64,000 nt of DNA, taken from contig NC_083587.1 in NCBI RefSeq assembly GCF_027579695.1, positions 8,223,501 through 8,287,500 of the forward strand. Direction: 5' to 3'. Shown here one piece after another: positions 5,416 through 61,528 of this stretch. This stretch comes from Neoarius graeffei. Lineage: Eukaryota > Chordata > Actinopteri > Siluriformes > Ariidae. The notes below the pieces were generated by a model. The model was not told the DNA's origin, made no database searches, and was given only the letters and a program-made list of their open reading frames with translations. The position numbers were made by a program, and so were the translations under genes. Every line of letters starts with the position of its first letter. Positions within the stretch are counted from its first letter, which is position 1.

Positions 5416-5583
5416 ACTCCCCTCCGCTCTCATTCTCCCTCCTTAAATAGGGCGTGGTTTACTGGGGAGAACACACACAAAACATAGGTTAATTATACTC
5501 AGGTGTAGCGATTCTGCCACTTACCTTCCCCAACTCTGCCCTCCTGTCACAGACCGGCGCTTGACCACGCCCCCGCTGCCACA
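5416..5583 (-). repeat. 5' LTR remnant of copy A
   Basis: About 168 bp matching the TGTGGCAG-side part of the 3' LTR at 2517-2684. The other half of the LTR, with the primer-binding site and gag, is deleted. Confidence 0.8.
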
Positions 5584-9770: not shown

Positions 9771-9966
9771 GTGTGGATATGAGTATGCATATGTTATAAA
9801 GTAACTTAAATCATTCTTTTCAAATGTATTTAATATTTATTAGTTGTATTAAACATTCCCCTCTGCTTTGTAAGGGCTTGGGACCTTCTAACATTACATA
9901 AATGTTATATAATGTTAGGCAGCATTAGAATGTTTTTTATTGTGTGTATATGTATACATACACGTA

Positions 9967-13350: not shown

Positions 13351-13487
13351 ATCTCGCGAGATGGAGGGAGCCAGGGCGGCAGAGAGGGAGCTACCGCAAT
13401 GGTCATCAGACACTTCCTGCTCTGGAGGAAGCATCAGTTAAGGTTGTTTAGATTTACATTTAACTGTACAGTGAATGTGAAGTGGTC

Positions 13488-14750: not shown

Positions 14751-14757
14751 ATGAGTT

Positions 14758-18500: not shown

Positions 18501-18658
18501 TTTTTTTTTTGTAGCCTAGTAATCTGACATAGAATCTGTCCAGTCCCTTCACACACTCCTGTACAGTAGGTGGCGGTATACACAGATTGTGACAATCTGC
18601 CATTAAAAAGAAGAAGAAGAAGATCTCGTGAGATTTGGAGAGCACGATGTCTTCCCCA

Positions 18659-19671
18659 TAGACATCCTATTACGTAGACGGAGCATCCAATGTAAATTCT
18701 AAAAGCGCGGACGAGACGCGGGGCCGCCATCTTGGAGTGGTGATACGCTGCACTCAGTGTAATGCGCTGGCAGCACTGGCTCGCATTTTTCTGTCATACG
18801 TGTAGCTATGATAAAGGATAGCGGCGGGGTTATTATTCATAGTTGGCTTCACGTTAATAGAATATCCTGATATTAAGTGAACAGATGTCAGAGATTGTTG
18901 AAGTTGAGGAAACGGTGATTAATATCCTACAAAAAATGTGTGAATACTAAATACATTAGACATAAACAGCTTAACGTTTTTCTATCGGCTACAACCACCA
19001 ATCTGTTGCAATGGATAGGGTAAATTCAGGTAAAGTGGGACACTTTTTTTTTAAAAATGCGGTTTTAACAATCTAAATCCATTATAATGATTCAAATGTG
19101 TGTATGTTTTCTTTAAATAGATTGTTAAGAACATATCAAAGGGGAAATTAATCTAGTCAGTGAATTTATAAGAGCCTTTTACATCCTTCAACACAATCTG
19201 ACACCCCCTTCAGCAAAGCTGATGTGAGTGGGGCGCTTTGTTTGGTATGTAGGACAATGTGTGATGACCATATATTGACCACAAACATTTTTTTGTTTGT
19301 TTTAAAGCATACCAAAACATTTATTTATAACAAATTAATGTAAAACATAAAAAATATAACAATGTAGTAAATGAATAAACTAGTAAATAAATAAAAAAGG
19401 TAGTATATGAATAAACATTTAATAACAATATATATAATATTAGCATACAACATTAAAACATGACTCGTGAAACCACTTATCACACTTACAGCAGGCCACC
19501 CATTCCTCCATTGCCTTTCAGTCACTTGCATCCCCCATACACCCCCTTGCAGACAGTATAATAATAATAGGATGACTATGATCTCGCGCTTATCTCACCA
19601 CTCCAAGATGGCGACCGTATTTCTCGCATCAGAACAGCCAACGCTCCGTCTACGTAATAATAGGATGTCTA
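18659..19671. mobile_element. MITE, about 1 kb, with roughly 110-bp imperfect TIR
   Basis: Left end TAGACATCCTATTACGTAGA and right end the inverted equivalent (TACGTAATAATAGGATGTCTA). A second inner inverted block is GCCGCCATCTTGGAGTGGTGA near 18722 against CACCACTCCAAGATGGCGACC near 19598. TA on both outer sides. The interior carries no recognised gene. Confidence 0.7.
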
Positions 19672-20263
19672 TGGTCTTCCCAGGTGCTGGGCGGAAGCAG
19701 CACGCGCTTAATGAGGAGGCGGAAGTTGGAGTGAAGTCCGTGCAGTTAATGGACTTAAAAGAGGTTAGAAACTAATTATAACGTTATACTTACATGAGTG
19801 CATGCTTGTTTGTCAAGAGAATGAAAGGTAAGAAAATTATACTTTTCAGAACTCTCCTGGGGGAGAAAAGCGCGTGAAGGACATGTTCAGCTGGCTGAGG
19901 GTCTGATGCGCGGCTGAAACGATAAAAACCGGGGATCCCAATTAACTGCAAACCGGTTCAGATTTATACAATTAAAGAGTTTTTGAATTGTTGATTTTGT
20001 TTTCTCAATTACTAAAGGTTATGGGATTCCTGTACTATCAGGCATGAGAGAGCTCAGAGTGAAAAATCTGAAGTAATACTCTGGTCTTGAATTTTAATCT
20101 AATAACAATGAAAGGGAAGTCTGAAATCAGATTTTGAGCTGAAAAATATCATGCCTGAATAATGTATAGTCGAAAATGTGCTTATCCATGGAAATTCATT
20201 CTCCCATGCAACCTGGTGTTTGCATTCATATAAAAAGTTTGTCGCAGATTTGTCTCCAACCTA
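19672..20263. other. Unassigned spacer
   Basis: No gene, RNA or repeat boundary that I can support. Moderately GC-rich near 19680-19930, then AT-rich. Confidence 0.4.
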
Positions 20264-38521: not shown

Positions 38522-38867
38522 GGGTGGCATGGTGGTGTAGTGGTTAGCGCTGTCGCCTCGCAGCAAGAAGGTCCGGGTTTGAGCCCCGTGGCCAGCGAGG
38601 GCCTTTCTGTGCGGAGTTTGCATGTTGTCCGCGTGGGTTTCCTCCGGGTGCTCCGGTTTCCCCCAAAGGCATGCAGGTTAGGTTAACTGGTGACTCTAAA
38701 TTGACCGTAGGTATGAATGGTTGTCTGTGTCTATGTGTCAGCCCTGTGATGACCTGGTGACTTGTCCAGGGTGTACCCCGCCTCTCACCCGTAGTCAGCT
38801 GGGATAGGCTCCAGCTTGCCTGCGAACCTGTAGAACAGGATAAAGTGGCTAGAGATAATGAGATGAG
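38522..38867 (+). mobile_element. tRNA-headed SINE, copy 6
   Basis: Full-length copy with TSD ATGAACTGAGTCA (38509-38521, 38868-38880), inserted in the LINE RT remnant a few codons before its YADD box. The head is slightly diverged (GGGTGGCATGG). Confidence 0.9.
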
Positions 38868-40573: not shown

Positions 40574-40944
40574 TATGGAGAGATTTTTGTTTCTTTATTA
40601 TCCGTTTTTGTTTCTTTATTATCCGTACTTGCAGACACCGTGATCCACGCGAATGATATAATATGCAAACGCAAGTACAAAATTCGTGACTTGTAAATTG
40701 GGATTTGCACGCATGTATCAGGTTTTGCATGTGCATCTGTACTGAAATTTCGTTTGCGACTCCTGCGTTCTTTGTGTGAAGTGATGAATCTGCATTTGCA
40801 GATCACCCAACACGCGGATGAATCCTTGCTTCCGCTTGCGTAATTTTGAGACATTCATTTCGCACTTTTCCAATCCGATCCGCATACCGAAGGTCTCAGT
40901 CCACACGCCAGAGGCTTGCACCCCCTCCAGTAGAGGGCGGTGTT
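40574..40944 (+). repeat. Left terminal inverted repeat of the large element
   Basis: 371 bp. A 21-bp piece (TTTTTGTTTCTTTATTATCC G) is duplicated near the tip, which the right TIR has once. Ends inward at CCTCCAGTAGAGGGCGGTGTT. Identity to the right copy is about 94% by eye outside indels. Confidence 0.9.
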
Positions 40945-43062
40945 TCTACTTTACCGAAGTTCACTCCGGTTCGGCTACCCGCAAACAGCTACTGTACTAC
41001 CAAGGCGGCTGTGGTACTACCAGAGGTCTACCAGAAAATTTTTAATGGAGCGAAATATGGAAGCAATAACATCACGTTAACCTCAAGGACGAAATGGAAA
41101 CAGAAATGAATGCCTGGGTGAGTCGAATATTTTGACATGATCAAGTAGTCAGAGATTAAGTACTTTAGACTGACTTTGCAAGTAGTCTACTGACTCGCTA
41201 GTACTTTTGGCAATGTGTGTTTGTTTCATTTCCCTTGTGAAGAAATGTACAGTAAAAAGTGCAGTAGCCTATTACTGAATAGCCTACAATATGTTGACAC
41301 AAAAACACGAAAACGCAAATGCAGAAAGAGAGTGTATTGCAGTTATTCCATAAGGGTTGTCACACATAGGCTATCACATTGCTAGCAGGCTAGTCGACTA
41401 CAAACGAAACAACCAAATGAAATGACGTTTATGTAGGCTACAGTGGAAATGTATGGTCTAGGTAGCCAAATGCAGATTGCGTATATGAAAATGGCTTCCA
41501 GTCAATCGATGGCGTTATGGATTTCAGACAGATTTAAGCTTTCAGGATTGAGACAAAAACAGCATTATCTAATAAACACACAGTCCATAGTACGCAGCAA
41601 ACATTGTAATCATAGATTCATAGGCGCCAAAACTATTCACTTTTCTAAAAGCTATCTCTGGAGTACCATTAACGTATGAAAGCTTATTCTCTCTGGATTT
41701 AATATAAAAAGAGGGATGTTCCAACCTCCCCTATACTTTATTGCCCACACATGATTATAAATCAAATGCATAAATACAGTAGGTGCATTTACTTAGGGCT
41801 TAGGGGGCTGGTACGTTTAATAACAGAGTATTAGGGAGTGAATACTTTTAGGATATGCTTTTGGGGGGTTTATTATTTTCTTTAATTTTAGAGATTATGC
41901 ATGCCATCTTATGTTTGATTTTTCTTTTGTAGGAATTATTGAGACAGCATGTTTTGGACAGACTGTTGACCAGGGTCACACTTGTTCTTCAGCAAACAGA
42001 CATGGATGAAGACTACCTGCGGTTTGTGTGTACACAGGAAATGGTTTTCCTGGACATCATATCCCACCATATTCCAGTGTCCCAGGAAATAACTGACTGA
42101 GGGCATTGGTCAATGCCCTGATGCTAAGGGAACATCAGCACCACCCTGTAGCACCAGTGCAATTTGAAAGCCGAAGTACAGCTGGTCGACCTAAAATCTC
42201 CATTTGTCCTGATCATTTGAAGCACCTTCTAGACATTGGGTTACCATTGAATACCATAGCTGGATTGATGGGGTTGTGTCGTGCTACATTGTACAGAAGG
42301 ATGTCTGAGTACAACATTTCTGTCAGAGAACTGTACAGCACTTGCACAGATGCTGAGCTGGATGAGCGTGTTTCTGCCATAAAGGAGACAATGCCACATG
42401 CAGGATACAGGCTGGTCAAGGGGACTCTGGCGGCACAAGGGTACCGAATCCAATGGAGTCGTGTTAAGGCTGCTATGCATCGTGTGGACAGTCTAGGGAC
42501 ACTATGCAGAATGACCCAAATGGGGTGTGTTGTAAGGAGAACTTATTCAGTTCCCTGCCCTATGTACCTTGTGCATATGGACACAAATCATAAGCTCATA
42601 AGGTAAGTCAGCTAAGTCAATTGTAAAAGTCAGCTTTATTGTTATACAAAGGAATCAAAATTACGTGTCTCGCTGTTTTGTGCATAGACAAAGACAGAAC
42701 AAACATTAAATTCAGAACATGAAGTAAAGTATGGTATTATGTTCTTAACCATCCTAGGTTTAACAAGCAACATTATTGTAAACATTTTTACTAGCTACTA
42801 CAGTATCCTCAAATACATAAAGCTGAACATCTTGTAGTGTGTGTGTGTACATTATTTATTTTGAGCATGTATCTTGGTTTACAAAAATGCGAAGTGTTAC
42901 TGCATGTCTTTTCATGTTGTTCCCCCACATACAATATCGTCATCTTTGGCTGCATAGATGGCTTTTCCCGTAAGGTGAGTACAGCACAAAAGTCCAATCA
43001 TCCATGCCGTTTTATGGTAATCCAAGTGTGGTCACAGAATATTGGCTTTGCCATGTATTTAG

Positions 43063-44651
43063 TAGAGATCGACCGATGTGTTTTTTTCAGGGCCGATACC
43101 GATTATTATGGAATTGGGATGCCGATAACCGATATGTGCAACCGATAAATGTAAACATTATAATTCACATGAAATTAAACATAGCACACACTGACACTGA
43201 CCTTCATATCCATGAAATGTATGTTTAATTGTAAAATTGAACATGAAATTTTGTGCAGGGAGATGCCAGCAGCATTTGTACAATAAAATCAAACATTAGT
43301 TAGAATAAAATGAGAAATAAAATAATAAAATATTCACCAATAAAAAAAAAAATCACTCCCTACTATATTACAGCTCACCATTTTCCGTGGAAAATAAATG
43401 AAAATACACTCTGGATTCTTTTACACTAAGAACTAAGTAAGACTTACCAACTTCAAGTAGTTTTTAAATAACAAATCAAGTGTAGGGAGCTGCCTGCAGC
43501 ATTTTTAAAAAAGTAAAATCAAACATAAAGTAGGCTATCACTCCCTATTATGTAACAACTTAACAAGTAACCATCTATGGCTCTGCTCCTTTAAGAGTAT
43601 ATCGCTTTCCAAATCAGAAGCGCTAGCGAGGAGAATCACTTGCGCAAGAATACTAGTGCAGTACATTACAGCGCAATGTGAAGTAGCATAAGAACATTTA
43701 AGTCAAGAGTTTAATTGATGTATTTCATTCATTACCGTTTATCCAAGCAAGCGTGCATCCACGACACAATTAATTACTGAAGCCACAACAAACGTCCTGA
43801 CAAACATGGCCTACTAGCACCATATCACACCTGGCTTGTTTAAATGTTCAAATAGCGCTTTATAAAGTTACCGAACATATACAAGTGCAATGCGCTTTTT
43901 GAGCACGAGTCACGTCATGAAGTTTACTCATCACCATAACAAATAGCCAGTAGGCTTGCACTAGCCTACAGAACACAAACACTAAGTTTTATTTCGTCTT
44001 CCCTTGACCACCTCTCTGTATGGCTGTCATTCTACTGTTCGAGTAGAACTACTGACACATTCACAACGTTTCCAGACGGGGATTTAAAAATGACTGCAGC
44101 CTACGTTATGCTGGGGACTGCTTACTATGGACAACATTTACATGTAGTTTCAGCGAGACTAGTTGGTTGTAGGCTAATTCAAGTGCTTCCTTCCGTAAGC
44201 TAAGTTTGCCTGGCTACACAGATGCAAATGGACAATTTTAACGAGTAGTAGATGAAGAATGTAAACATATAATGATGTTGTGCTTTTGCAACTTGTGTGT
44301 TTGTGACTTATTGCGGCAAAAGCAGCGTGTCCTTACCTTGAAGTGGGATCTGCTTCTGCCCGAGTGCCCATACGGCCGCCTTGAAACAGTTCACAGCGGT
44401 TAGCTATGCGTATTGATTGGCTGTATCCCTTGTGCTAAACAAATCAGATGTTGTGGTGGGCGGGACCGTGTTCTTGAACTCGGAGGCGATTGCAGGAAAG
44501 GACGTGCAGTGACAGTCGCGTTAGGAACGAAATGGCTGCAAAAAGGCATGTTATCGGCATATCGGTGGAAATTATGGCCGATACCGATAACCCTAAAAAT
44601 GCAGAATATCGGCCTGATATATCGGCCAGGCCGATTATCGGTCGACCCCTA
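43063..44651. mobile_element. hAT-type non-autonomous element (1.59 kb) in an integrase intron
   Basis: TIR TAGAGATCGACCGAT at left, inverse of ATCGGTCGACCCCTA at right; TSD GTATTTAG / GTATTTAC (43055-43062, 44652-44659), 7 of 8 matching. The subterminal CCGATA/TATCGG repeats are typical of a widespread fish hAT family. No transposase seen; an internal duplication of a GCAGCATTT...AAAATCAAACAT segment lies near 43265 and 43495. Confidence 0.85.
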
Positions 44652-44987
44652 GTATTTACATTAATGCCATGTATTTACATAAATTTGAAAACAAAAAAGG
44701 CAATTTGAGACACATTGTGTTTGCTTACCTGCTTGTTTATGTCAAAAGCTATGGTAGAACGTTTTTTTTTTTTTCTAAACTTGCGTCCATCTTGTCAACA
44801 GATAATGTACCTGAGAGCTGCAGACAATAATCGGTCTGAAACAAACCTAGCCTTCTTCCAAGAGGCAGTTCAGGAATTCGGCTATCCACTCAGGTGAAAT
44901 TTCACTTGGGTCCACTATGTCGAGGAACTACTAACCATGGCACAACTATTCAGATAATCTTATTGACCATGTCTACATGCCTTAAAG

Positions 44988-46969
44988 CAGGGGTCACCAA
45001 ACTACGGCCCGCAGGCCAGATCCGGCCCGCCACCCCCCTTTGACCGGCCCCCCAGCCCCTCTGCCCCCCATCACTTGAACCGACCCTATGAAGCAATCCC
45101 CAAAAGTGGTCATGGCCTATTTTTTTAAATTGCTTTTTGGCAAATAATAACATGTCTGCATCTTGTATTTTGTTGATTTTATCAATTAAAATTGATATTT
45201 AGTTATAAAATGAACTATTCATATTTTCCGAATTTTCGTCATATGCTCGCGATCAAGCAGTGACAGGCAGCGCATGCGCAAAGAACTGTCAGTGTTCGGG
45301 ACAGCAAAATGGCGAGCGGTCAGCGAAAAGCTGACAGAGAGTGCAGAGTTTTTAAAGAACAGTGGACCACCGATTATTTTTTCGTTCAGTGTAAGGACCG
45401 TGCAGTTTGTCTTGTATGTAAAGAAAGTGTGCCGGTTTTCAAAGAATATAATCTGCGTCGTCACTACGAAACCCACCACAAAGCAGGGTTCGAATTATAA
45501 ATTTGACCCTATGGGGGTCTCTGTTTAAAAAAAAAAAGCAATGCATACTCGCTCTCCTGGACCAGCGCACTTTTGCGCACTGCAGTGCACAGCTTTCACA
45601 CACAGGCGCGCGCATGCCCGCACGCACGCACACACACACGGTGTTGCATATATATATATATTATATTGTTAAACAAAGGAAGATCGTTGTGAGCTAGAGG
45701 ACAAGTCTTCTTCGGACTTAACTTCACATTCGATTTCGCAGGCTGCAAATTTCAGTTTGCACGCATAGTGGTGTGGTGGTGAACTACAGCCGTACATGTT
45801 GCGGTTTAATAACACGTTCAATACAAAGTTATGGCTGCATGGTGATCGGAAATGAAATGAGTTTTATTTATATTTATATGGTGATATAGGCTATTCAAGC
45901 TTATTATGGTGATATATGACGTATTTGAGAGACTTCCACAGAGAATTAAGTTTGCTTCTTTCATGGGAGCCTGAGGGAATGGGAGCTCAGCTCCCATTGG
46001 CTCCCATGTAATTCGAACTATGCCACAAAGAGTATGCTAGTTTGCGAGGGCAAACAAGAGAAGATAGGATTCTGAGGATGAAATGCGGACTGGCTGCACA
46101 ACAGAATGTATTCCTTCGCCAAACCCAGATCAACCAGGCTGCTGTCTGAGCTAGCTATAAGGTAGCTCACCTACTAGCTACCCATGGAAAGCCGTTTACT
46201 GATGGGGACTTTGTTAAAGTATGCATGCTTGCTGTGGCCGAGGAGGTGTGTCCCAACAAGAAGGATGCGCTCAATGCGGCGAGTCTCTCCGCACCTACTA
46301 TGACCAGGCGAACCGAAGACTTGGGGGACAACGTGTATGACCAGCTGAATGAGAAAGCGTCAGAATTCGAGTTTTTTGCTTTGGCCATGGATGAGAGCAA
46401 TGACGTGCAGGACACAGCACAACTGCTGTGATCTATTGATCATATTATTATAATTTCACTGTTTTTTAAAATGTATTTATTTTATAGGCCTATTTATTTG
46501 ACCTTTATTAAGTGCTGCATACAATTATTATTAATATTATTAATAATATCAACAGGCTTACCTACAATTTATAATTTTCCACTCACCTTTGCCAGTGTCA
46601 ATCACCTCAACTAGGCAGATGTTTCTTACCTTGACAGCTTTGATATTATTTTTATTAGAAAATAAATAAATGGAATATCAGTGGTATTTCAAATTAAAAC
46701 AAAGTGTGAAGACTTGATTACTACTTTTGCAAACCACTAGTAAAGATAAACAAATATGTGCCAGGAATCAAGTGTTGATATAGTAGTGTGGATATAGTAG
46801 TGGGGATGGCCGTGCCAGGCTAGTAATCTCTACTACACAATGAGGCCTGCTGGTGGTCATATTTGTCTGGGTTATACAATTCTATGTGATATAGCTGACC
46901 CGACCCCGGCCCCCATCACAGTCAGGAACGACAATGTGGCCCCCAGAGAAAAAAGTTTGGTGACCCCTG
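44988..46969 (+). mobile_element. hAT transposon fossil of the GTF2IRD2-like type
   Basis: TIR CAGGGGTCACCAAACT at left and AGTTTGGTGACCCCTG at right, with a perfect 8-bp TSD CCTTAAAG (44980-44987, 46970-46977). 1982 bp, carrying decayed transposase exons. Inserted in an integrase intron, exactly at the edge of the Kolobok-type MITE. Confidence 0.92.
45309..46431 (+). pseudogene. hAT transposase remnant (GTF2IRD2/EPM2AIP1-like)
   Basis: MASGQRKADRECRVFKEQW followed by CLVCKESVPVFKEYNLRRHY and a His-rich end forms the N-terminal zinc finger of this family (45309-45500). 46040-46431 encodes CGLAAQQNVFLRQTQ, ASYKVAHLLATHGKPFTDG and EFFALAMDESND, the start of the catalytic region. A TGA splits the second block near 46146 and the frame ends at 46431; the main catalytic and dimerisation regions are deleted. 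The same family gave rise to domesticated vertebrate genes. Confidence 0.8.
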
Positions 46970-46975
46970 CCTTAA

Positions 46976-47505
46976 AGGAACAGACCGCCGTATTTCTATA
47001 AATGTGTTCTTCTCTGAACTGAGACAGGCTGATAGGTAGCTCTCTGAGCTCTGTGCGTGCCCCCAGTCAGTTAGACGCGCCCCCCCAAAGTTGCTAGAAT
47101 GTAGCTAGGCTCAGCAAAGTGGGTGGCATTTTTTCAGGCTAATGTTAGATATGACCAAGCTCTTCCACATTTTCCCTGGACACTTACAATGTTGAGCGTT
47201 CACGCCATTGCATTGGATTGACGGTGTTGCCATGTCATTCAGATGTTTTCCAGGTTCCTTATAGTCCTCCTCTGTGAAATGCTCAGAGCAAACTCGCCAG
47301 GTCTTCACAACTTCCAGTGTTGAGGGATCCAGTTGTAACACAACTAGCTTCTAGCTGCTATCCAAACTTGCCGTTGTTTGTAGTAGGTTGGAATTGTGTG
47401 AAACATCACAGGACTGTATACCCTCGACTTGTTGTCTCAACCCAGCAAGATGCATTTAACAACCATTACATGCATTTCATTATAGAAATACGGTGGTCTC
47501 TTCCT
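46976..47505 (-). mobile_element. Kolobok-type MITE with a THAP exon
   Basis: TIR AGGAACAGACCGCCGTATTT and its inverse at the right end, flanked by TTAA on both sides (46972-46975, 47506-47509). TTAA targets, a G-rich terminus and a THAP domain inside are the marks of Kolobok. Length 530 bp. Confidence 0.75.
47111..47341 (-). pseudogene. THAP-domain C-terminal half
   Basis: Encodes WRVCSEHFTEEDYKEPGKHL, the Cys-x2-His-Phe closing part of a THAP finger. No initiator or first half nearby, so it is a truncated remnant inside the MITE. Confidence 0.6.
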
Positions 47506-48393
47506 TTAAATTATTTCATTCATTTCTGAGCCTGATGATTGGCTGATATTAGTTAACATACAGTAAAACAGGCTTGCCCGAAAAGGGGTAGAGGACTATT
47601 ACAGTATGTGTTCCCTATCACCTTCAATTTCACTACCATTATACAAACACAATTGCTTGACCTCTGTGATATTCATTCCCCTCTCATGTAGGACCTGTTT
47701 AGACATATATGGATATTTTTGTAAACGTATCCGTTTGGGCCTTTTGTTACACATAAACAGAGTTTTAGCTCCCTAAAGTGGATATTTTTAAAGTAGGAGT
47801 TTTAAGTGGAGATTTCTGAAACACACCTGTCACAATGGCGTTTTTATTTTTATCCACATGCCGTGTTTTTATGTAAACAGGTAAAAAAAAAAATCAGCGT
47901 TTAAAAATATCCACATACGTGTAACCAAGTCCCTAATCAGTAGGTCCCATATCCCTTTTCACATTTTCCCTTTTCCACATGTCCACTGCACCAGTCCAAT
48001 ATCACAGTAAAGAAGCTGTCCTTTATTTGCTCTTTGTAAGTTCCTTGTATGCTTGTTAAATGATATTGTTCTTTGCCACACCTTATTTTATGTTTTATTG
48101 ACAATATTTTGCATAGAGTTCGAGCAGATCAAGGGGGAGAGAATGTTGGAGTGGCTCGCTTGATGTTTACTGTGCGTGGACCAGACAGTGGCAGCTTCAT
48201 TGCTGGGAAGAGTGTCCATAATCAAAGGTACTGTACAGTTTATTCAACCGAGTATATTTTTAAACAAGACCATAGCACCTTATCATGGTTAAGACAGTAT
48301 ATCAAAGAATTGGCCTGTATCAGGCCTTGCATTCACTCCACTCAAATCACTCCCTAGGCTGCCTTGTACTCTTTAATTATATCTGTGAGTGAG

Positions 48394-48535
48394 TTACTGG
48401 TGGATTCGTGACATCGTCAGTTTGTGACTGTAGCTTCGTGACATCATCGTCACTGTGCCCGTGTGTAACGAGCCGACTGCATGATGTCACGAAACGACGC
48501 GTCACGAACTGACGAGGTCACAAATCCACCTGTAA
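48394..48535. mobile_element. Small hairpin MITE
   Basis: Arms TTACTGGTGGATTCGTGACA and the inverted GTCACAAATCCACCTGTAA, about 60 bp each, around a short loop. It can fold almost end to end. Sits in an integrase intron. Confidence 0.7.
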
Positions 48536-48577
48536 CCTGTGAGTGTTAAGATTGTGTGTGTATGTATACAGTATGTA

Positions 48578-48944
48578 CAGGGTGTCCCAAAGGTGTATGC
48601 ACACGTAAAATCATTGTAAAGTAGGAAATAAAATTTCATGTAATTTTCAAGTGTAATAGAATGTCCAGACATTAATTTAGTATATTGTCACCGCTTGTTC
48701 TCAAACTGGCACCCATTCTGGCCCAGGCACTGCTGACAATGTGAATCACGCAGTCTTGAAATTTTTGTGCATTCACTTTCAGTGACTCTTGCAGGTCTCA
48801 TAGCGTAGGCTTGAAACATCAGTTTGAGAATAGGTAGTGACAAAACAATAAAATGCTGTCTGTAAATTCTAACACTTCTTCTTTCTTAAACACCTACTTT
48901 AGAATGATTTAAAATGTATATATTTTGGGGGGGGGCACACCCTG
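48578..48944. mobile_element. Mariner-type MITE
   Basis: CAGGGTGTCCCAAAG at left and GGCACACCCTG at right, flanked by TA (48576-48577, 48945-48946). The terminus is that of mariner-like elements. A nested inverted pair (ACCGCTTGTTCTCAAACTG and its complement near 48835) is also present. No transposase. Confidence 0.75.
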
Positions 48945-50721
48945 TATAAGCTACCAAATGACTACAAGTTCCCTCTGCTAATTGTGTATTGTCACTAACA
49001 GAATTGAGAGACTTTGGCACGACGTCTGGATGGGGGTGACCAATGTGTTCTATCACGTTTTACACTGGCTAGAGGAAGATGGCCTTCTTGACTTAGGAAA
49101 TGCAACACATTTCTTCTGCCTGCATTATGTTTTCCTGCCACGACTCCAAGAAAGCCTCAACTTGTTCTGTGATGGCTGGGACAATCACCCCCTCAGAACC
49201 GAACAAAACCTAACACCAAATCAGTTGTTTGAAGTTGGTCAGATGCATCATCCCATTCCTAATCCACAGGTATCACTGAAATGTGTTTTTAACATGTCTT
49301 TTTCTATATGTGCCAATTTTTAATGTGATTCTAAGATGGGGTAATTAAGCACTGATTTACTCTACAAATAGCCAAGCCTTTTATGAATGCTTTTTTTTTC
49401 AAACCTTTAGGAAATCAACATTCCAGAAATTGACTGGGAAGAGAGTGTCGAAATCCCAGAACCACATCTGCATGTCAATGTTCCATTGGTGGATTGCCCA
49501 CTTACTGCAGAGCAAATGGAGGCATTAATACACCACATTGACCCACTTCAGCCTTCAGACTGCAACGGTGTTGACTTGTATACAGACACAGTGGAGTATG
49601 TGGAAAGTCTAAGGCCCTGTCCACACGGCAACGGATTCAGGTGACTCCGATACAATTGCTTATCGTTTAGGCCTGGCGTCCACACGGCACCGGCATTTTG
49701 GGTGCCCAAAACGCAATCTTTTTGAGAACGGGTTCCAGAGTGGAAAGATCTGGCAACGTTGCCGTTGTGAAGTCGTCTGGATGAGTAGAACGGATTTGTT
49801 TACGATGACGTCACAACCACATGACTGTGAGTGCTTCTTGCCGGGTAGAAGTGTAACGAACTCGATGCGAGTTGTCAACAAATCCTATAACTTGGTTCAT
49901 GAAACGCGCTTACAAAATATTTTCACTGTGAATATTTATTGTGTAATGGTGCAAAGTGAGAGAGAGAGAGACTCTGCCCTTAGGGCAGAGTGAATCCCGC
50001 CAGCAAAAATAGGGAAAAAAAAAGGAGCGATCTCGCCTCTTCAGATGTTGGTTTAAGTCCGACAATACATTCCTCAAAAAGGGCGTAGAAGAGCAGATTA
50101 ATCCATCAACGTGTAGCATTCAATTTATTCCGGACCATTAAAGACGCCGCCTTCCGTGTAGAATCATACGTCATCCTCGCCGCCATATTGGATAGGTCAA
50201 AGTGGAGAATAAAGATTAGCTGCGTTTAACTGTATCAACAGGTTTGCCATCCAAACGAGATCACATGGGATTACCTTTCACAGGTGAGACTGGAAAAATA
50301 CTTTTCATTGTATTTGGTCATTATAATGTAATTTTACGAACAGATTTTCCTGACTTTGTGGCTAATATGAAGTCTCACGCATAATAGTTTATGCGCATGC
50401 GTCCTTACTACTTCTATTGTTCTGGTGTCTCCGAAGGGACCGTCTTACAGCGCCCCTAGAGGTGTGGCATGTGTATTGCATCGTTTTCAGCAAGCGTTGC
50501 GTTGCCATATGGACCTGATATTTTACTGATCGTTGCCTAAGGCTACATCCACACGACAACGGCAACGAGATGTTATTTAAAAATATATCGCGTCCAAATG
50601 GGCAACGATCAGTAAAATATCAGGTCCATATGGCAACGCAACGCTTGCTGAAAACGATGCAATACACATGCCACATCTCTAGGGGTGCTGTAAGACGGTC
50701 CCTTCGGAGACACCAGAACAA

Positions 50722-51362
50722 CCCATACGAAAAAGAACAGTAAAGAACTTATAAGAGTTTACCACTGTCTTAGTAGTAAATCCTTATAAGGATTTATAAA
50801 TATATATGCCATGTATGATTTACTCCTGAAAGTGGCCCATTTTGCATTTTCCTCATACAAATTTTTTATGAAAATCTAGTATGTATGAAGTGAACATTGT
50901 GCATGGTTTTTACAGATAATGTGTATGATGAATTACACCGTCTTTGTATGCTTCACGTAATGTTTGTAGTTTTAAATTATATTTTACAGTTTAAAATGTA
51001 TATGCCTTTTATATGTAAATCCAACACAAACATATGTGGATTTACATATAAAAGGCATATACATTTTAAACTGTAAAATATAATTTAAAACTACAAACAT
51101 TACGTGAAGCATACAAAGACGGTGTAATTCATCATACACATTATCTGTAAAAACCATGCACAATGTTCACTTCATACATACTAGATTTTCATAAAAAATT
51201 TGTATGAGGAAAATGCAAAATGGGCCACTTTCAGGAGTAAATCATACATGGCATATATATTTATTTATAAATCCTTATAAGGATTTATCCTTATATTTAT
51301 AAGGATTTACTACTAAGACAGTGGTAAACTCTTAAGTTCTTTACTGTTCTTTTTCGTATGGG
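50722..51362. repeat. Near-perfect 640-bp palindrome
   Basis: Arms of about 300 bp run from CCCATACGAAAAAGAACAGT to its complement, with the centre near 51030 and a loop of about 15 bases (51023-51037). It lies within the right arm of the larger fold-back and looks like a separate palindromic MITE insertion. The right arm has a roughly 24-bp extra TTATAAGGATTTAT repeat. Confidence 0.85.
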
Positions 51363-51494
51363 AATAGAAGAATTAAGGACGCATGCGCATAAACTGTTAT
51401 GCGCGAGACTTCATATTAGCCACAAAGTCAGGAAAATCTGTTCGTAAAATTACATTATAATGACCAAATACAATGAAAAGTATTTTTCCAGTTT

Positions 51495-51880
51495 CACCTG
51501 TGAAAGGTAATCCCATGTGATCTCGTTTGGACGGTAAACCTGTTGGTACAGTTAAACGCAGCTAATCTTTATTCTCCGCTTTGACCTTTCCAATATGGCG
51601 GCGAGGATGACGTACGCGGAAGGCGGCGTCTTTAATGGTCTGGAATAAATTGAATACTACACGTTGATGGATTAATTTGTTGTTTCTCACCTGTGAAAGG
51701 TAATCCCATGTGATCTCGTTTGGACGGTAAACCTGTTGGTATAGTTAAACGCAGCTAATCTTTATTCTCCGCTTTGACCTTTCCAATATGGCGGCGAGGA
51801 TGACGTACGCGGAAGGCGGCGTCTTTAATGGTCCGGAATAAATTGAATGATACACGTTGATGGATTAATTTGCTTTTTTG
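51495..51880. repeat. 193-bp tandem duplication in the fold-back right arm
   Basis: CACCTGTGAAAGGTAATCCC begins at 51495 and again at 51688, and the two units differ at only a few positions. The left arm has this segment once. Confidence 0.85.
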
Positions 51881-51977
51881 AGGAATGTATTCTAGGACTT
51901 AAACCATCATCTGAAGAGGTGAGATCGCTCTTTTTTTCCCCTAGTTTTGCTGGTGGGATTGACTCTGCCCTAAGGGC

Positions 51978-52021
<44 letters not shown>

Positions 52022-52592
52022 TTGCACCATTACACAATAAATATTCACAGTGAAAATATTTTGTAAGCGCGTTTCATGAACCAAGTTATAGGATTTGTTG
52101 ACAACTCGCATCGCATCGCAATGAGATCATTGGCACTACTGGTGTTAAGAATCAGACCATTTCATAAATGAATATTTTGCTGTAGAGCTGCAGTGTTTGT
52201 ACAATTGCATGTTTTTGCTTCACTATTACTGTCACTATTCTGCTTCTTGCATTACTACTGTGAACTAACACTGAACATAATAATAATATCCAAGCTCGTG
52301 TTTCACTCTCACTAGTGCTCTGTAAGGCTTTTTCCTGGTGATATTCGTTACACTTCTACCCGGCGTGAAGCACTCACAGTCATGTGGTTGTGACGTCATC
52401 GTAAACAAATCCGTTTTACTCATCCAGACGACTTCGCAACGGCAACGTTGCCAGATCTTTCCACTCTGGAACCCGTTCTCAAAAAGATTGCGTTTTGGGC
52501 ACCCAAAACGCCGGTGCCGTGTGGATGCCAGGCCTAAACGATAAGCAATTGTATCGGAGTCACCTGAATCCGTTGCCGTGTGGACAGGGCCT

Positions 52593-52996
52593 AAGAGCTT
52601 GAGTTTATTTTTTGCGTTTTCTCAAAACATTGTAACAGACACTGAATAAATGTCATGAATGTGAATGGAAAAAGTCAATCTCCGTGCTTTTTATGCCAGC
52701 TTTTGTTTTCAGGCAATTTGGGATGAAATGTGTGGTAATAATCGAAATTTGCACACACAACGAATTTTGCTACAGAGCCGAGCATTTTGGGTACAGCAGT
52801 AGCTCCCCCCCCCCACCTTTAAATAGACTCCAATGGTTCACTAATACAATAATTCCTAAAATGGCATTAAGTCTTTAAGTCTGCAAACTATTATGAACAT
52901 TTCAATTACTAAAACATACTAGAATTCAATATTAATTACAAAAACAGTCAGGCAAACATTCATGCATTCCTTTTAAGCAAGTCAAAATGCGGGAAA
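52593..52996. other. Intergenic region between the two converging genes
   Basis: 3' ends of the integrase and HECT genes meet here. AATAAATG at 52645 on plus could serve the integrase transcript as a polyadenylation signal. No further coding. Confidence 0.4.
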
Positions 52997-55900
52997 CTAT
53001 ACCAAGCCAAAGCCACTGTCGACAGACTCAACACAAACCATCAGATCAGATTTAAGGCCAGAATAGCTACAGTAATGATCTGGAATCCGTAGACGCTCGT
53101 AGCATGTGCTGGCAGTTAGTAGGTGGTTTCGCCCCCTGGACTTCACTATCTCTATGTTGAGCGTGCTCGGTGGTACCTCCCAGCCAGTCCAGAACTTCAC
53201 AAGCTTGGACAGAATTCCAGAGGTTGCTAAGACAAAGAAAAGTTTATTTTATCCCATGTATGAGGGTCATTACCGCTTTTAGTAGCACAAGTCAGGTGGT
53301 GCAATTACAGCTAATGCCACTATTACATGGATTAAATTATTATTTTTGATGGATTGTATTAAATGTATGCATTCCATGTAAATGAAACATTTTGTACAAT
53401 TAATTGATTTATTTCACACAAAATGACATTAACAGTTCAAAAACTAAGACACCAAACACTTTGGTGGTCAGGAGTGCTGCTTCACTATTAAGCAGGTGCT
53501 CTTTGGATCAAGGAGAACAGTCATTTAGAAGCTTGGTCAAATTTAACCCCAGTAGGTGCTGCGGTGTAAGTTCGGCTAACGCGTTGCGAACAAGTCTTCT
53601 TCAGAGCCAGGCCCACCACAATAAAGCCTTTTTAATCTAGCAGTGTGCCTTTGGAAATCCTTGGCAAGACTTACACCGCAGCACCTACTGGAGTTGTTTG
53701 ACCAAGCTTCTGAAAGACATTAATGGTTGTTGCGACACCCTGACAAAAATGCCAATGACCTATGTGCATTTGTGTGCAGACATGTTTGTATAGATAGCAT
53801 ACAGTCACTTGGATTTACATCATTGTAACCACAGAGAAAGATTCTTGTTTTCAAAACCCAAAACTAAATTACTTAGATTACAACTACAGTGGCAACAATA
53901 ACAATATTGTGAATACTAAACATTTTAAAAAGATGCATTTTAAAAAGGCCAAAAGACATGCAAAGATATTTAAATATTTAAAAAAATACAATTCTGTGAG
54001 TTTCCATGGTAAAGGGGTGCAATCACAAACTTTTGAGCTGCACTGTATGTTGAAATAACTTACCGTTTTCAATGAAGGTGCGAAAGTAACCTGTGATGGC
54101 ACTGACGGTGCCAGTTGGAACGTCATCATCAGAGTCATCACTGTTGGCTTCTTTGGCATGGGGCCATCTGATGCATTGAAGAATGACCTGAGAGCATTAA
54201 AAAACACATTATTCCATATCATTTTTGAGATGTACTTCCAGTAAGCTCTAACACAATTGGTATAAAAGGTACTTGTCAACACACTTCTGGAGTTAGCTGG
54301 ACCTCAGCCTCCCGTGGAAAGAAAAGGGGAACAACATCTTGGCGAGTGGCTAGAAGTGGCCAAACACCTGTGTCCTTCAATCCCTTTCTTATTTGTTTAA
54401 TCTGGGCATGTGCTCTGCCAAGTACCTGTGAAAATGGAGTATAACGTGTATATCAAAATATAAAGTTGTGGTAGAAATGTGATCAGGTGCCTGGACCGCT
54501 TCATTTTACGATTAGATTTATTGCTACATTCTTACAACATAAAAAGGTACAGGAACTTGAGACTTGGTTGGAAAAACACTCTGCAATGGAACAGTGACCC
54601 AAAGCTAAACACATAAACTTGTCTAGTCAGCTAACGTGTTGGTCAAGTCAAAATATGGACTTTTTGACTTATCACAATCTTTGAAGAACTACTACATCAA
54701 TCATCCAGATACAAAACAGGAGCACATTACCGCATGAGAAAGAAGCTGCTGAAAGAGCAGCAATCTGTTGGTCTCATTGGTTAGAACTGGGCAGTACCAA
54801 TTCAGGCAAAGTTCCCTTATTTGTGATGACTCCTCCTCAGTCCATCGTTCTTTCATAACCTAGGGATGAAGGCTCATAAACAGGTTTTGAACACGAAACA
54901 TAAGATTATGGTATGATGGGCTACAACTTTTTCACTCACCAGACTGATGGTTTCCCGGTGTTCTACATCAGAACAGTCTTCCATACAGAGTTTTGATGCA
55001 GCCATTTCCTTTGTGGAATATATCAAGGCATCCACCACTGCTGGACTAAGTCCTGACAGTGTAGGACCGCCATGTATCACAGAATGACCAATCATCCTTC
55101 CAGCCATCACAAGCAAGTCACTTTCAAGGAGGGATGTAGATAAGACGGGCACGAGGTGGCCAGTTTGTCCTTCAAGCAATGTAGTCAAGGCTGCATTTCC
55201 TAGGAAGCACAAATCAACTCAATGTATGGTCAACTCAACGATTTCTGATGTGCCAATGTTCACCAGGGATGTGAGGGAATTGATAAACAGTACATCTATT
55301 ACAGTGGTAAGACATCCACATACGTGACAATTGGGTTACACTTCAGTGGTATCATCATGTGGCCGATTTACAAAAGTACAAACCTAAGTTCAGCTTAAAT
55401 CCATGTTTCAGCTTGGAAATGGCTGATGACAGAATGTGTCTTGTGACCCCCACACCAACGGCTGCATCCCCTAGAATGAAACATTATTCACAGTGTGGGC
55501 ATAGATTAATTGAATTTCAGCTGTAAACTTTACTTCTCATTTCCTTTAGTTCCCAAGCAAGTGTGACAATTTCAGACTATTGTGAATATCATTGTGAATA
55601 TCAATATTCTGTTAAGTTGTTACCTCTGTCAATGTATACCTATAATACAGCAGTGGAATGGTGCTGCCCATTGGCTTTTGGCACGATCAGTTTTGTAAAA
55701 AGAAATGAGGGCGATGTCCCGATCTTCATCATCCTCCGTTGCATTCAGGGTAAGCATCAGAGGTGGCTGATTCACCCCTCCTTGCCTCAGCTCTTCTGCA
55801 TAGCTTTCTGCGGGGTGTCTGCTGTTTTCCATGACATCAATGAAGCGAAAATGGAATTTGAGCAATTATAATGACAGTGATCATGTAATATACCATGCCA

Positions 55901-58900
55901 AGCACATTTTCATGTGTGAACTTTTTTGTTACCTGTTTCAACTGGTACTAGTGGAGATCTGTCCACAACATATCCAGATGATGTACCTGGCGCATCTATA
56001 TCTGGTTGCAAAGGCCATGAAGGACCTGGGCCATTCACGTTCTCCTTTACAGGCTCTCTGTATGCCCTTTCATCAACTGAACATTAAAAAACATCTAAGG
56101 CATGCTCACAAATAGCTTTCACAATCAAGCAGAGTTGTAATATTTTTAGTTCAGGTAAAGGTAAATGTCATTAAACAGATATAGTTTTTACTTTACACAT
56201 GGAAATATTTCATAATAAAGTTATATTTACCTTTCTGCACACTCACTGCCATGGTTAGCCAGCACAGATATAGAGGATTTCGGCCTACGTCATTGTTTCC
56301 ATAGCGACAATATTTATGCCGCCATTTTGACGGCCACAAATATGGCAACTACCGGTAGCGATACACTGTTGATCATGACGAAGTCTCATTGTCGAGTATT
56401 TTATCTGGCCTAGATGACACGAGTAAGAAGCGATATCACCAGAAAATCAATGATGCTGGTGTACGTGATCTGTACACGTTACCAGGCTATCTTTTTCTGG
56501 CTTTGCAGCGCGGGTGAACTTCCTGACCTGCAGTCAGGCGTGTGGGAAATACCAGGGAAAAAACATAAAAGAAAAAGGAGCGAGATGCAGAAAACACCTT
56601 CACTATCCAGCGACGTAGGGCATTTACAGGGCGAGCAGAGGGAGAGGTATTTGCAAAAATTGAGGTTAGCAGGCTTAGAGAACGACGTTTACCTGCTTCC
56701 ACCAGGATTGTTCACTGACGTACGGAAGTACACGAAGCCCTCGTCTTTACCTGACTTCGGCCCACATGATCTGTATACCTATGTCGTTAAAAACCAGGCT
56801 GGGTAACATGCCTACATCAGCGGGTCATCCCTGGAGCCGGTAGTCACCATCTTATTACAGCTAAGGTTTGTTCACATTGTCATTTACTTTTGGTCCTCAG
56901 GATAAACAAAATGTTATTAAATGTCATTGAAATAACTTCTTAGTCTGTTGAGACATGGCCCGTTATAAATTTGCTGTTACCAGGCAATGACCAAGAACTG
57001 TATTATTAGGGTCGGTGTAGTTGTAGCAGTGCACTAGCAGCTAGCTGTTAGCACTAGCTAATGTCAACAACATAGTAGCTGGTATGCTACTGTAGCAATG
57101 TTTACGTTCAGTCATTTGGATGACTGTTAAAACCTTTCAGCCTCAAGTTTTTCCTTTACTGTATTTACTAGTTTACTGAGCTAGCACGCTCAGGCAGGCT
57201 GGGAGCTAGCGCGCTCACTCCCAGCCTGCCCGAGCTAGCGCGCTCGCTCCGTAAACTAGTAAATACAGTAAAGGAAAAACTTGAGACTGAAAGGTTTTAA
57301 CAGTCATCCAAATGACTGAACGTAAACATTGCTACAGTAACATACCAGCTACTATGTTGTTGACATTAGCTAGCTTGACCTTCAAAATGGCGGACACCGG
57401 GGCGTCACGTGACCTGTGATGTCACATCGAAATCCTCTATAGGGAATTCTTTTTGGCAAACTGGACACACCTACACAGAACACAGCATCAGAAGAAAACC
57501 CATAAACTTAGACGTGCACATCAGTAACTAATTTGCCTCAAGTAAAATGGTTCAAATGAGGGTACATTTACCCCTTGTTCCTCTGTATCATCTTCTATGA
57601 CCACCTCATCATCTTGCACCTGTAGTTTTAATTTAGTAATTGGTTAATTAATATAGCAGTCATACAATTATACTACTTCTATTAATGATTTACAATAGAT
57701 ATGCTCACTCACATTTACTGTTGGCTGGCAGTTTGCAGCATGGAGTGCCAACATTTGAAGAGGCATGGTGGCATTGCAAGTTAGACAGAGCACTTGTGGC
57801 ATCCTCTCAAATTCAGCTGAATCATAGGGCAGCGGTTCCATGTCCAACTCCTCTTGCAAGGGAACCAGGAAAAGGTGATTTTTCCCATTGTTGGTTACAG
57901 CACAGAGCTGCTGTCCTGAGTAACCCTCTGTGTCCATGGGAACAGCTGAGAGCTTCCTTTGGCCACAGCCACCTATGCCATACCATAAAATGAATCCAGT
58001 AATATTACAGGTCATTGTGGGATTACCTTTTAACACCCTAAGTTAATCGACCTAGGAAAGATAGCAAAATGACACACCTGCTGCTTTGAAAAACATCCAT
58101 CTTCCTTCAAGAGGGCGGAATTTCTTGAACTCATTTTCTATCTGCGTCACAATCTAGGCATAGCCAAATCAAAATGAAGTTAGTTTCATATACATACAGG
58201 GATTACATTGAGCCTGGGCTGAGCCTTGGCACATAAGCTGCATTATGACATGAAAAACAAAACAGTGTTAAAGAATTATCAAAGCAATGCATTTTGTGTA
58301 GACCACCTGGTTTTCCTGATAGCAAGGCAACTTATTATTAAAACAGTTGCGATCAGAGCCCTCCACATAGCCAATTCCATACATAAACTAAAATAACATA
58401 CATCAGCATGTTTGCAGTCCTCTGTTAACGTCACCAGTCTTCTTCCTAGCCCTGCATGGACTAACTCCAATTCTTTGGAGGATTTTGGAGTGTGAGTGGT
58501 GGGTCCAGGCAGGGCAAAAATCGTCAGGTTAATGGTCTTAGCTGGACTAGACCTTACAGAAGTAGAGAACCTGCCTTTCCTCCTCTTTGGCTCATGTTTT
58601 GTCTGGAACATATTTGGAAACTGCCTACAAAGGGGTCAAAAATAAAAGAAAGAAAAGGCCAATATTATAAAAATGGAAAACTAACATAGTTTTCTTTCAT
58701 CTTATTGATCTATATCTATTGCTGTATTTTTCAATCCATCCTAGTGCAGGCCCCCAACATATTGGGCTTTATTTAGCCCATATCCAATGCTGGTCTCAGC
58801 TCATATTTGCACTGCCTTAACCTCTTTTTACCCTTTACCATACACACAATTATTAATTCTATTATTTAGTTTGTTACTTAGTAATTATCATCTTTAATTC

Positions 58901-59788
58901 ATATCTTTATCTTATATTATATGTAATGTACCTTTTTAAAGCCTGATTCACTATAGTGACGGAAGGGGTGGAGACTGGCGTGGCAGGTGTGTGAGTAGTG
59001 GCAGCGGCATTTGGTCTGGTAGTAACACTGGCAGCCTTTGACAAAGCATCTAGCAATGTTCGTGCCATCATCTCTACTGTTTCCTGCAAAATGTACATTC
59101 CCATTAAACCATGTCACCCACTTAGTTCATTAACGTAATAATTACACTTTTGGATAAAAAATGCACATAAGAATATGCAAAATAACTCAATTACATTTAT
59201 GTCCTTTGACTTATTCAAAATGCGTCTTATAATCAAGTCAATACCCACTCTCTTTAAAATGTGCATCACCCCACCTAGTCACCTTGTCAGGTCTCCCCTG
59301 TCAGATCCTTATTTCATCTACCAAATACAGTAGCGACAGTGAGAAATTATTAGCTAAGTAGATAACCCCTGTCAGATTAGCTTCTGTTGCAAAACCGTGC
59401 ATTCCCTCTTGATCTCTAGCACAGAACGGAGCAAAAACAAACTTGTATAAAATTAATTCTGGCATTTACACCCCAAGCACACCTAAATTTAGTGTTGTGG
59501 TCTCCTTAATATGCTATCCCTGAAGGATTACCACTGATATTTTGAAGTTCTGCCTAGCTAGCAACAACCTAAAGTTTACATGCTAGTTTGAAAACCGCAA
59601 ATGCTTGAAACTCCAAGGTGCCGCAAACCAGAAGAGATAAAATCGCCGATATTCTGTTTGTATTAAGTGGTGATTTTGGTTTTGATTGCAATTGATGGTT
59701 TGCTAACTCACTGACAGATGAAGGAATTTCACACAATTTCACATACTTTTGAAGGTATGCCTTCGGCAGAAGGCACTTGTCCAGCCAT
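52997..59788 (-). CDS. HECT-domain E3 ubiquitin ligase-like protein carried by the large element (G2E3-like)
   Basis: Fifteen exons on minus: 59788-59747, 59083-58932, 58624-58402, 58153-58078, 57972-57713, 57619-57572, 57470-57442 joined to 56272-56231, 56066-55933, 55807-55640, 55470-55384, 55199-54940, 54859-54731, 54425-54285, 54187-54064 and 53226-52997. With these GT-AG choices the exons total 2145 nt, one open frame of 714 codons starting MAGQVPSAEGIPSK. Residues about 265-290 form a C2HC UBZ-like finger, CPVCQKEFP...NHGSEC. From about 340 on is a divergent HECT domain (FYKTDRAKSQWAAPFHC, GRMIGHSVIHGGP), ending with TASTCYERLRIPDHY, whose Cys fits the ubiquitin-accepting residue. Resembles the multicopy fish G2/M-phase E3 ligase-like proteins. 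Exon 7 is split by a 1165-bp element (56273-57437), so normal product requires its loss. Confidence 0.82.
53527..53711. repeat. Hairpin repeat in the last HECT intron
   Basis: Arms AGAAGCTTGGTCAAATTTAA...GGTGTAAG and the complement starting CTTACACCGCAGCACCTACT, about 45 bp each, with a loop of about 100 bp. Probably a small MITE. Confidence 0.65.
56515..56806 (+). pseudogene. N-terminal segment of a SWIM/YqaJ-like family protein
   Basis: A GELPDLQSG start, a basic KKHKRKRSE patch, then RERYLQKLRLAGLENDVYLL and DFGPHDLYTYVVK, resembling the opening region of repetitive fish proteins with SWIM and YqaJ-like domains. Ends in a stop at 56806. The same region type occurs at 7092-7378. Assignment is tentative. 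Confidence 0.45.
57054..57375. repeat. Hairpin of about 130-bp arms inside the TATA element
   Basis: CTAGCTAATGTCAACAACAT to TTTACTAGTTTAC is repeated inverted at 57235-57375. The loop GGCAGGCTGGGAGCTAGC...CCCAGCCTGCC is itself palindromic. Confidence 0.8.
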
Positions 59789-59856
59789 GATCAAATTTGA
59801 AAAAGAACGGAGAGGGACACTTGTGAGCTGATATACGGCTCTGAGCTGAGCCAGAC

Positions 59857-60276
59857 AACACTGCCACCTACTGGAGGGGGAAGGGCTGCAAGCCTCTGGC
59901 GTCTGGGTTGAGACCTTTGCGTGTGCGGATCGGATTGGAAAAGTGCGAAATGAATGTCTCAAAATTACGCAAGCGGCCGCAAGGATTCATCTGCACGTTG
60001 GGTGATCTGCAAATGCACATTCAACACTTCACACAAAGAACATAGGAGTCACAAACGAAATTTCAGTACAGATGCACATGCAAAACCTGATACATGTCTA
60101 CAAAATTGGTATGATTTATTTTACAAGTTTCCAAACATTTGAATAAATCAGTACACTTTTATGCAAATCCCAATTTACAAGTCACGAATTTTGTACTTGC
60201 GTTTGCATATTATATCATTCGCGTGGATCACGGTGTCTGCGAGTACGGATAATAAAGAAACAAAAATCTCTCCATA
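59857..60276 (-). repeat. Right terminal inverted repeat of the large element
   Basis: 420 bp, inverted relative to the left TIR. Contains a roughly 63-bp insertion (about 60104-60166) absent from the left copy. The inner boundary AACACTGCCACCTACTGGAG matches the left inner boundary. Confidence 0.9.
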
Positions 60277-60291
60277 GAGAGAGAGAGAGAC

Positions 60292-60322
<31 letters not shown>

Positions 60323-60323
60323 C

Positions 60324-60813
60324 CACCGTCCTCGACCCCTGTTACAAAAAAGTGGCGTTTAACGACAACAGAGCACTCGATGAAGCTCTTCAAAGAATAA
60401 CCACAGCAGCTGCAAGAATTGGCCAGTCACTACAAGGGGGCCAAGAGGGAGAAGAAGCAGCAGAGGATGTGCCAGAGGAGCCAGCATGTGCTGTGTGGAG
60501 GTTTTTTGAAGAGTGGGCCAGTGGAGACACTGCAAGCAGGAATCCCATGGCAGATTCCATAATGGAAGTACGGTCCTATCTTGAGGAGCCCCTGTTACAG
60601 CGAAACGCAGACCCACTAAGCTGGTGGGAGACCAAGGCTGCACTCTATCCACGGCTTACACACGTGATGGCACGGAGGATGTGTATAGTGGCAACATCTG
60701 TCCCCTCAGAGAGGATCTTTTCAAAAGCAGGACAGATTATAACTGAGAGGAGAAATAGAATCAGCCCTTCAAAGCTGAGACACTTGGTTTTCCTCAATGC
60801 CAATCTCCACTAA
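60324..60813 (+). CDS. hAT transposase C-terminus (ZBED-like)
   Basis: Open from TTVLDPCYKKVAFNDNRALD to the stop at 60811-60813, 162 codons. It includes the hAT dimerisation region: DPLSWWETKAALYPRLTHVM, then SVPSERIFSKAG, ITERRNRISP and LVFLNANL. This is the most conserved part of hAT transposases and of ZBED1-type host proteins. The BED finger and catalytic Asp positions are missing, so it is a fragment. No stop or frameshift within it, suggesting fairly recent truncation. Confidence 0.8.
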
Positions 60814-61151: not shown

Positions 61152-61528
61152 CTCATCATCTCATCATCTCTAGCCGCTTTATCCTGTTCTACAGGGTCGC
61201 AGGCAAGCTGGAGCCTATCCCAGCTGACTACGGGCGAAAGGCGGGGTACACCCTGGACAAGTCGCCAGGTCATCACAGGGCTGACACATAGACACAGACA
61301 ACCATTCACACTCACATTCACACCTACGGTCAATTTAGAGTCACCAGTTAACCTAACCTGCATGTCTTTGGACTGTGGGGGAAACCGGAGCACCCGGAGG
61401 AAACCCACGCGGACACGAGGAGAACATGCAAACTCCACACAGAAGGGCCCTCGCCGGACCCGGGGTTTGAACCCAGGACCTTCTTGCTGTGAGGCGACAG
61501 CGCTAACCACTACACCACCGTGCCGCCC
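61152..61528 (-). mobile_element. tRNA-headed SINE, copy 7 (full length)
   Basis: Reverse orientation. Perfect TSD CATTATGTTTGT at 61140-61151 and 61529-61540. Head CGGCACGG complement at 61526; B box and A box intact apart from one change. Confidence 0.9.

Follow-up and report, generated by a model that had tools for sequence, protein, structure and literature searches.

The closest described relatives of the element discussed here, which occupies positions 40574-60276 of a 64,000-nucleotide stretch of the Neoarius graeffei genome (C20:8223501-8287500, hereafter the window), belong to IS3EU (/GingerRoot), a Repbase superfamily of DNA transposons (Kojima and Bao, 2023; PMC10045372). Its families are described as having an IS3/IS481-like DDE transposase, termini of the form TA..TA and usually a 6-bp target-site duplication (TSD) (PMC10045372); the window element and its sister copies are like them in termini and TSD length, and their DDE transposase is probably of this type, but HECT does not occur in that text. 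Fungal IS3EU elements with TET/JBP genes, described in 2025, have ends of the form TAYGG..CCRTA, a 6-bp TSD and an alpha-kinase gene oriented opposite to the transposase, and their author reads the TET/JBP genes as an escape from methylation silencing (PMC12730594). The likeness to the window element extends to the ends, the TSD and the oppositely oriented second enzyme gene, but the fungal partners are a kinase and TET/JBP rather than HECT, and neither HECT nor ubiquitin occurs in that text. In Cottus, some unclassified repeats match proteins by blastx, G2E3 among them (PMC5638112); these are also G2E3-like fish repeats, but the passage describing them links none to a transposase, to terminal inverted repeats (TIRs) or to IS3EU.

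We are highly confident that the window element is a cut-and-paste DNA transposon of the IS3EU kind with two genes, the second of which encodes a ubiquitin ligase. To our knowledge, no ubiquitin ligase is known as a standing part of cut-and-paste transposons. Plant Mutator-like elements carry Ulp1-like protease genes and thus also an enzyme of a ubiquitin-like pathway, but their transposase is a different one and the enzyme is a protease, not a ligase. A full-text literature search found no paper with both HECT and IS3EU (Repbase entries lay outside this search, so that a database note is possible), and among the papers listed by searches on HECT or G2E3 together with transposons, none describes such an element, as judged by titles and abstract openings. 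An earlier reading of the window from its letters alone (the sequence-only reading) knew of no description of such an element; this still applies to the HECT partner in the literature searched, but not to the transposase, which fits a named superfamily. What is new is the HECT partner; an IS3EU-type transposon is already a known kind.

In the window copy, both TIRs open with TATGGAG and enclose two convergent genes, a DDE transposase gene on the plus strand and a HECT E3 gene on the minus strand. The TIR arms are 99% complementary over 105 nt (40605-40709 with 60162-60266) and 92% complementary over 184 nt (40704-40887 with 59921-60104), and they differ by some 60 nt extra in the right TIR and by a 21-nt tandem duplication in the left. 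TIRs, gene order and Pfam matches all confirm the TIR-bounded unit with convergent integrase and HECT genes that the sequence-only reading had proposed, as does the position of the first exons, which lie directly inside the TIRs and have GT donors in the window. Copy letters and locus numbers in the following list refer to sequences introduced below.

40574-40944, plus strand: left TIR, 371 bp, starting TATGGAGAG and containing the 21-bp tandem duplication
41094-41117, plus strand: transposase exon 1, METEMNAW, with a gtgagt donor; aligned in 7/7 copies
41933-42602, plus strand: transposase exon 2, the N-terminal part with a helix-turn-helix-like region and the first catalytic D; frameshifted near 42097
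42930-42974, plus strand: transposase exon 3, YNIVIFGCIDGFSRK; acceptor position tentative
44823-44897, plus strand: probable transposase exon 4 (..NNRSETNLAFFQEAVQEFGYPLR), positioned by eye through its similarity to the proteins of L043 and L044, with an approximate start
48117-48227, plus strand: transposase exon 5, second catalytic D (RADQGGEN)
49002-49269, plus strand: transposase exon 6, catalytic E (IERLW)
49411-49613, plus strand: transposase exon 7, extending to nested insert 3
53000-53203, minus strand: HECT C-lobe exon with the catalytic-cysteine motif STCYERLRIP
54065-56083, minus strand: middle HECT exons (about 56083-55937, 55802-55650, 55218-54940, 54820-54731, 54386-54285 and 54193-54065; boundaries approximate), N-lobe-like region and hinge
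57533-59083, minus strand: N-terminal HECT exons (about 59083-58931, 58602-58438, 58141-58076, 58027-57725 and 57625-57533; boundaries approximate)
59747-59788, minus strand: HECT exon 1, MAGQVPSAEGIPSK; no counterpart found in B, C and D
59857-60276, minus strand: right TIR, about 420 bp, starting TATGGAGAG on the minus strand

Strung together, the transposase exons of the window match the rva_4 integrase core far above the Pfam cut-off (3.4e-56), and the catalytic E lies 34 residues past the second D; helix-turn-helix profile matches stay below the cut-off. IS3EU is defined in part by an IS3/IS481-like DDE transposase without the HHCC motif; the window shows the rva_4 core with D-34-E spacing. 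Termini, TSD length and transposase core fit the published descriptions of IS3EU. The HECT exons, likewise joined, match PF00632 (5.9e-9), a profile that scores above cut-off in all five families scanned (window, L040, L042, L043 and L044). The catalytic-cysteine motif is kept in six aligned C-lobes, and the L040 C-lobe aligns with that of AREL1, a solved HECT ligase, through the TCF motif, which we take to hold the catalytic cysteine. A C-x2-C-x11-H-x3-C motif, presumably of UBZ4-like, RAD18-like zinc-motif spacing, occurs once in the window (near 57725) and twice in L040, with no Pfam match.

When 327 bp of the left TIR were searched against the 2.34-Gb genome, at least 54 matches came up; those listed include, besides the window, seven TIR pairs whose members lie over 8 kb apart:

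A, C1:46.06 Mb
B, C1:116.58 Mb
C, C1:112.93 Mb
D, C1:113.66 Mb
E, C20:4.48 Mb
F, C20:0.11 Mb
G, C4:107.1 Mb

Six of the seven (A-F) enclose both genes, collinear with the window, which bears out the expectation that both would recur between TIR pairs elsewhere; copy G has transposase halves only. Mean identity of A-F to the window is 97.5-97.9% over 11.3-12.2 kb (87-99% in single segments), and the common core consists of element positions 1-2488, 4079-4414, 6395-9040, 12006-15706 and 16865-19703, 12,010 bp in total. The native length of about 20 kb assumed in the sequence-only reading is rejected, since the remainder of the 19,703-bp interval beyond this core of about 12.0 kb consists of four nested inserts that are not present in the other copies read. 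The window family also includes shorter derivatives (H-J and L-N) and transposase-half derivatives (G, K and P-S), and at C16:7.29-7.31 Mb both genes are present with one TIR located. The loci L025-L026, L030 and L035-L038, also of this family, hold the transposase half only, several of them in a fold-back arrangement.

The family of the window element has moved in the past. Exact 6-bp TSDs flank copies E and F (TGTCCA) and the short derivatives J (CTAATG) and M (CATAAT), and the TSD of copy I matches at 5 of 6 positions; apart from the window, A-D, G and N, whose flanks do not match exactly, the remaining copies had only one readable end or flank. When the flanks of copy E were joined with one TSD (260 bp) and used as a query, all 40 matches scored, out of 1678 candidates, spanned the joint, and 3 of them cover the full 260 bp at 97%. 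These matches are empty sites, inside a repeat. The ends read TATGG..CCATA in the window copy and in C, E and F, with TATGC at one end in B and D and a changed start at one end in A. Recurring TIR pairs, TSDs and the empty sites for copy E, which had been named as a check, thus uphold the proposal that IS3-like transposase and HECT ligase form one mobile unit.

The two genes also belong together across the genome, where figures count loci rather than families because related copies are not independent. A transposase-exon query gave 82 matches and two HECT queries gave 41 and 89, of which the counts took all 41 rows of the one and 48 C-lobe rows of the other, hinge-exon rows being left out. In a first count, 40 of 55 HECT loci had a convergent transposase partner, and no pair had another orientation; 15 seemed to be orphans, and of the 14 most-diverged transposase loci not one seemed to have a partner. 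Because of these apparent orphans, three example loci were read directly: L042, an apparent orphan HECT gene, has a diverged transposase adjoining it, and L043 and L044 have transposases of 32-34% identity, with HECT genes present. With this reading and a wider search, most apparent orphans gained partners. The wider count added rva_4 matches and a diverged HECT query, took all rows of the latter and of the transposase-exon search, and kept rva_4 rows only if IS3EU-like (profile end at 180 or beyond, or at least 115 bits); this rule, the 25-kb limit and the clustering distances are our own choices. A convergent partner then lies within 25 kb at 73/86 G2E3-like HECT loci and 73/94 transposase loci, with 0.17 expected, and the 75 locus pairs within this limit comprise 74 convergent, one same-strand and no divergent pair. 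At tighter limits 64 (5 kb), 71 (10 kb) and 71 (15 kb) HECT loci are paired. A cluster at C23:3.66-6.07 Mb has seven transposase loci within 2.5 Mb, and at six of these a HECT match lies no more than 25 kb away.

A count that used no window sequence set Pfam rva_4 (150 listed of 156 matches, which came from 150 scored of 752 candidates) against Pfam HECT. Among the matches listed, a convergent rva_4 lies at 29 of 74 HECT loci, with 0.22 expected, and no HECT locus has rva_4 solely in another orientation. The 45 unpaired HECT loci include 29 with two or more matched stretches, which are host-gene-like, and at least 8 of the remaining 16 are paired in the wider count. The 75 rva_4 loci that our rule set apart as integrase-like include, again among the matches listed, one convergent and one same-strand to HECT.

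Six families were read directly (window, L041, L040, L042, L043 and L044), and all six have the convergent pair. A second family is TIR-bounded: at the C9 locus (L040 with L046, positions 735-10271), TIRs of about 850 bp, 96% identical and with a matching part that starts TATGAAGG, enclose transposase and HECT; no TSD was found for this element. Some 22-28 kb beyond the right edge of the window lies L044 (C20:8309500-8318500), where a highly diverged transposase of IS3EU type has a convergent HECT gene. Two scans of viral contigs found no relative. Distantly related copies repeat this arrangement of two genes, so the partnership appears to be an enduring feature of the life of these elements. 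By name and likeness, we take the fish HECT genes to be G2E3-like. Fish G2E3-like genes, which are annotated as host genes, likewise have a HECT C-lobe with the catalytic-cysteine motif and a zinc-motif N-terminal part, but the loci here depart from that label in that 73 of the 86 adjoin an IS3EU-type transposase, which supports, within this one genome, the mobile origin that the sequence-only reading had suggested for them.

The case for a two-gene transposon draws on the TIR pairs, the TSDs of E, F, J and M, the empty sites for E, the genome-wide counts and the convergent pair in six families, together with the selection and the catalytic-cysteine motif. Several observations weigh against it. 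The expectation of matching 6-bp TSDs held for E/F, J and M, but there is no exact TSD for the window copy, whose flanks (gagcaa/gagaga) lie within a GA repeat, nor for A, B/C/D, N, the composite copy G or the C9 element. All seven two-gene copies (window and A-F) are broken in at least one gene: relative to the six others, the window copy has the frameshift in transposase exon 2 near 42097; A and E each have a stop in a HECT exon; B, C and D lack a recognizable HECT exon 1, C having a transposase stop as well; and F has an interrupted transposase exon. No convergent HECT was found at 21/94 transposase loci, nor, in the first count, at 6/14 loci of the window family, and 13/86 HECT loci have no convergent transposase found. 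These 13, among them C14:9331114, C12:43735827 and C8:83152958, are possibly domesticated or orphaned HECT genes, or their partners were missed by the searches. Moreover, Pfam recognizes the HECT C-lobe only, the N-lobe region having no Pfam match. Finally, flanks are common to B, C and D and likewise to E and F, so that the seven two-gene copies represent four insertion sites, and the two sets are probably duplicated blocks.

These common flanks could suggest that the copies arose by segmental duplication or as an assembly artefact, with no transposon at all. However, there are four distinct flank sets on C1 and C20, and the exact TSD of E and F and the empty sites for E refute this reading, which we reject as the least probable of all. 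The several derivatives that hold the transposase alone (P, Q, R, S, G and K) would fit two separate elements, a transposase element and a HECT element, with a tendency to insert side by side. Such a tendency does not explain why 74 of 75 pairs within 25 kb are convergent and none divergent, nor why one TIR pair encloses both genes in two families. Furthermore, the two genes diverge in step: their identities to the window correlate (Spearman 0.84 over 16 diverged pairs, which are not independent), and a comparison of five-family matrices, one C-lobe being partial, gave an r of 0.76 that 3 of 120 relabellings reached. Side-by-side landing is therefore rejected as extremely improbable.

It is also conceivable that the HECT gene rides along in the transposon as a passenger, a piece of a host gene that this family captured once and carries without function. 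DNA transposons often contain captured pieces of host genes, and none of the seven copies read is intact in both genes. Yet the HECT gene stands convergent in six families with transposases down to about 32% identity, its catalytic-cysteine motif is kept in the six aligned C-lobes, and its dN/dS is as low as that of the transposase. When the window family is compared with L041, dN/dS comes to 0.106 for HECT (270 codons) and 0.113 for the transposase (385 codons), with 1.25-2.30 in wrong frames, values that are rough because synonymous sites are near saturation, a further point to be held against our interpretation. Purifying selection is similarly strong on both genes in the one family pair compared, and we reject the passenger as highly improbable. 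Since it adjoins the transposase in all six families read and, in the one pair compared, is under purifying selection as strong as that on the transposase, the HECT gene very likely does something for the element.

In a two-gene transposon of this kind, the transposase would bind the TIRs, excise the element and join it to a staggered target, and the HECT protein would work in trans as a ubiquitin ligase that aids the spread of the element. The inference here is that the HECT protein has ligase activity and helps transposition. Among its possible functions we tentatively prefer action at the transposon-DNA complex or at the excision break, as the presumed RAD18-like zinc-motif spacing would bring the protein to ubiquitinated chromatin at sites of DNA damage. 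Alternatively, the ligase may remove a host silencing or restriction factor, a possibility that we rank second and consider somewhat doubtful. It gains from the fungal IS3EU elements, whose TET/JBP genes their author reads as an escape from methylation silencing (PMC12730594). However, no target of such an activity is visible in the sequence. The presumably UBZ4-like spacing, moreover, points equally to damaged chromatin. Control of the transposase level by the HECT protein ranks third and is unlikely.

It is appealing to propose a broader picture, to which we give an even chance as a whole: IS3EU would be a general two-gene platform in which a transposase faces inward from one TIR and a post-translational modifier (HECT in fish, alpha-kinase in fungi) inward from the other, the ligase would be selected and needed for spread, and the fish G2E3-like family would consist largely of such elements and their domesticated offspring. 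The steering of ubiquitin signalling by a transposon, be it at breaks or against silencing, becomes testable. Most of a fish gene family that annotations list as host G2E3-like may be transposon sequence, and if so, genome annotation and gene-family counts would change.

The four nested inserts of the window copy, all absent from the other copies read, are as follows.

43062-44651 (element 2489-4078), no strand assigned: nested insert 1
44988-46967 (element 4415-6394), no strand assigned: nested insert 2
49614-52578 (element 9041-12005), no strand assigned: nested insert 3, made up of long inverted repeats
56280-57437 (element 15707-16864), no strand assigned: nested insert 4, with a 137-nt inverted-repeat pair

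The ends of nested insert 2 (CAGGGGTC..) are presumably hAT-like, and the one open reading frame (ORF) tested in it has no Pfam match. Nested insert 4 holds an ORF at 56414-56806 (YLQKLRLAGLENDVYLLPPGLF..), also with no Pfam match. Outside the element, an inverted-repeat pair at 38522-38866 and 61156-61528, 22 kb apart, flanks it on both sides and may be two copies of a common repeat that are paired by chance, or part of a larger structure. On the right, a hAT C-terminal dimerisation domain (Pfam 1.1e-20) at 60256-60813 lies in an open frame that begins at the right TIR, so that the element adjoins, or sits within, an older hAT copy.

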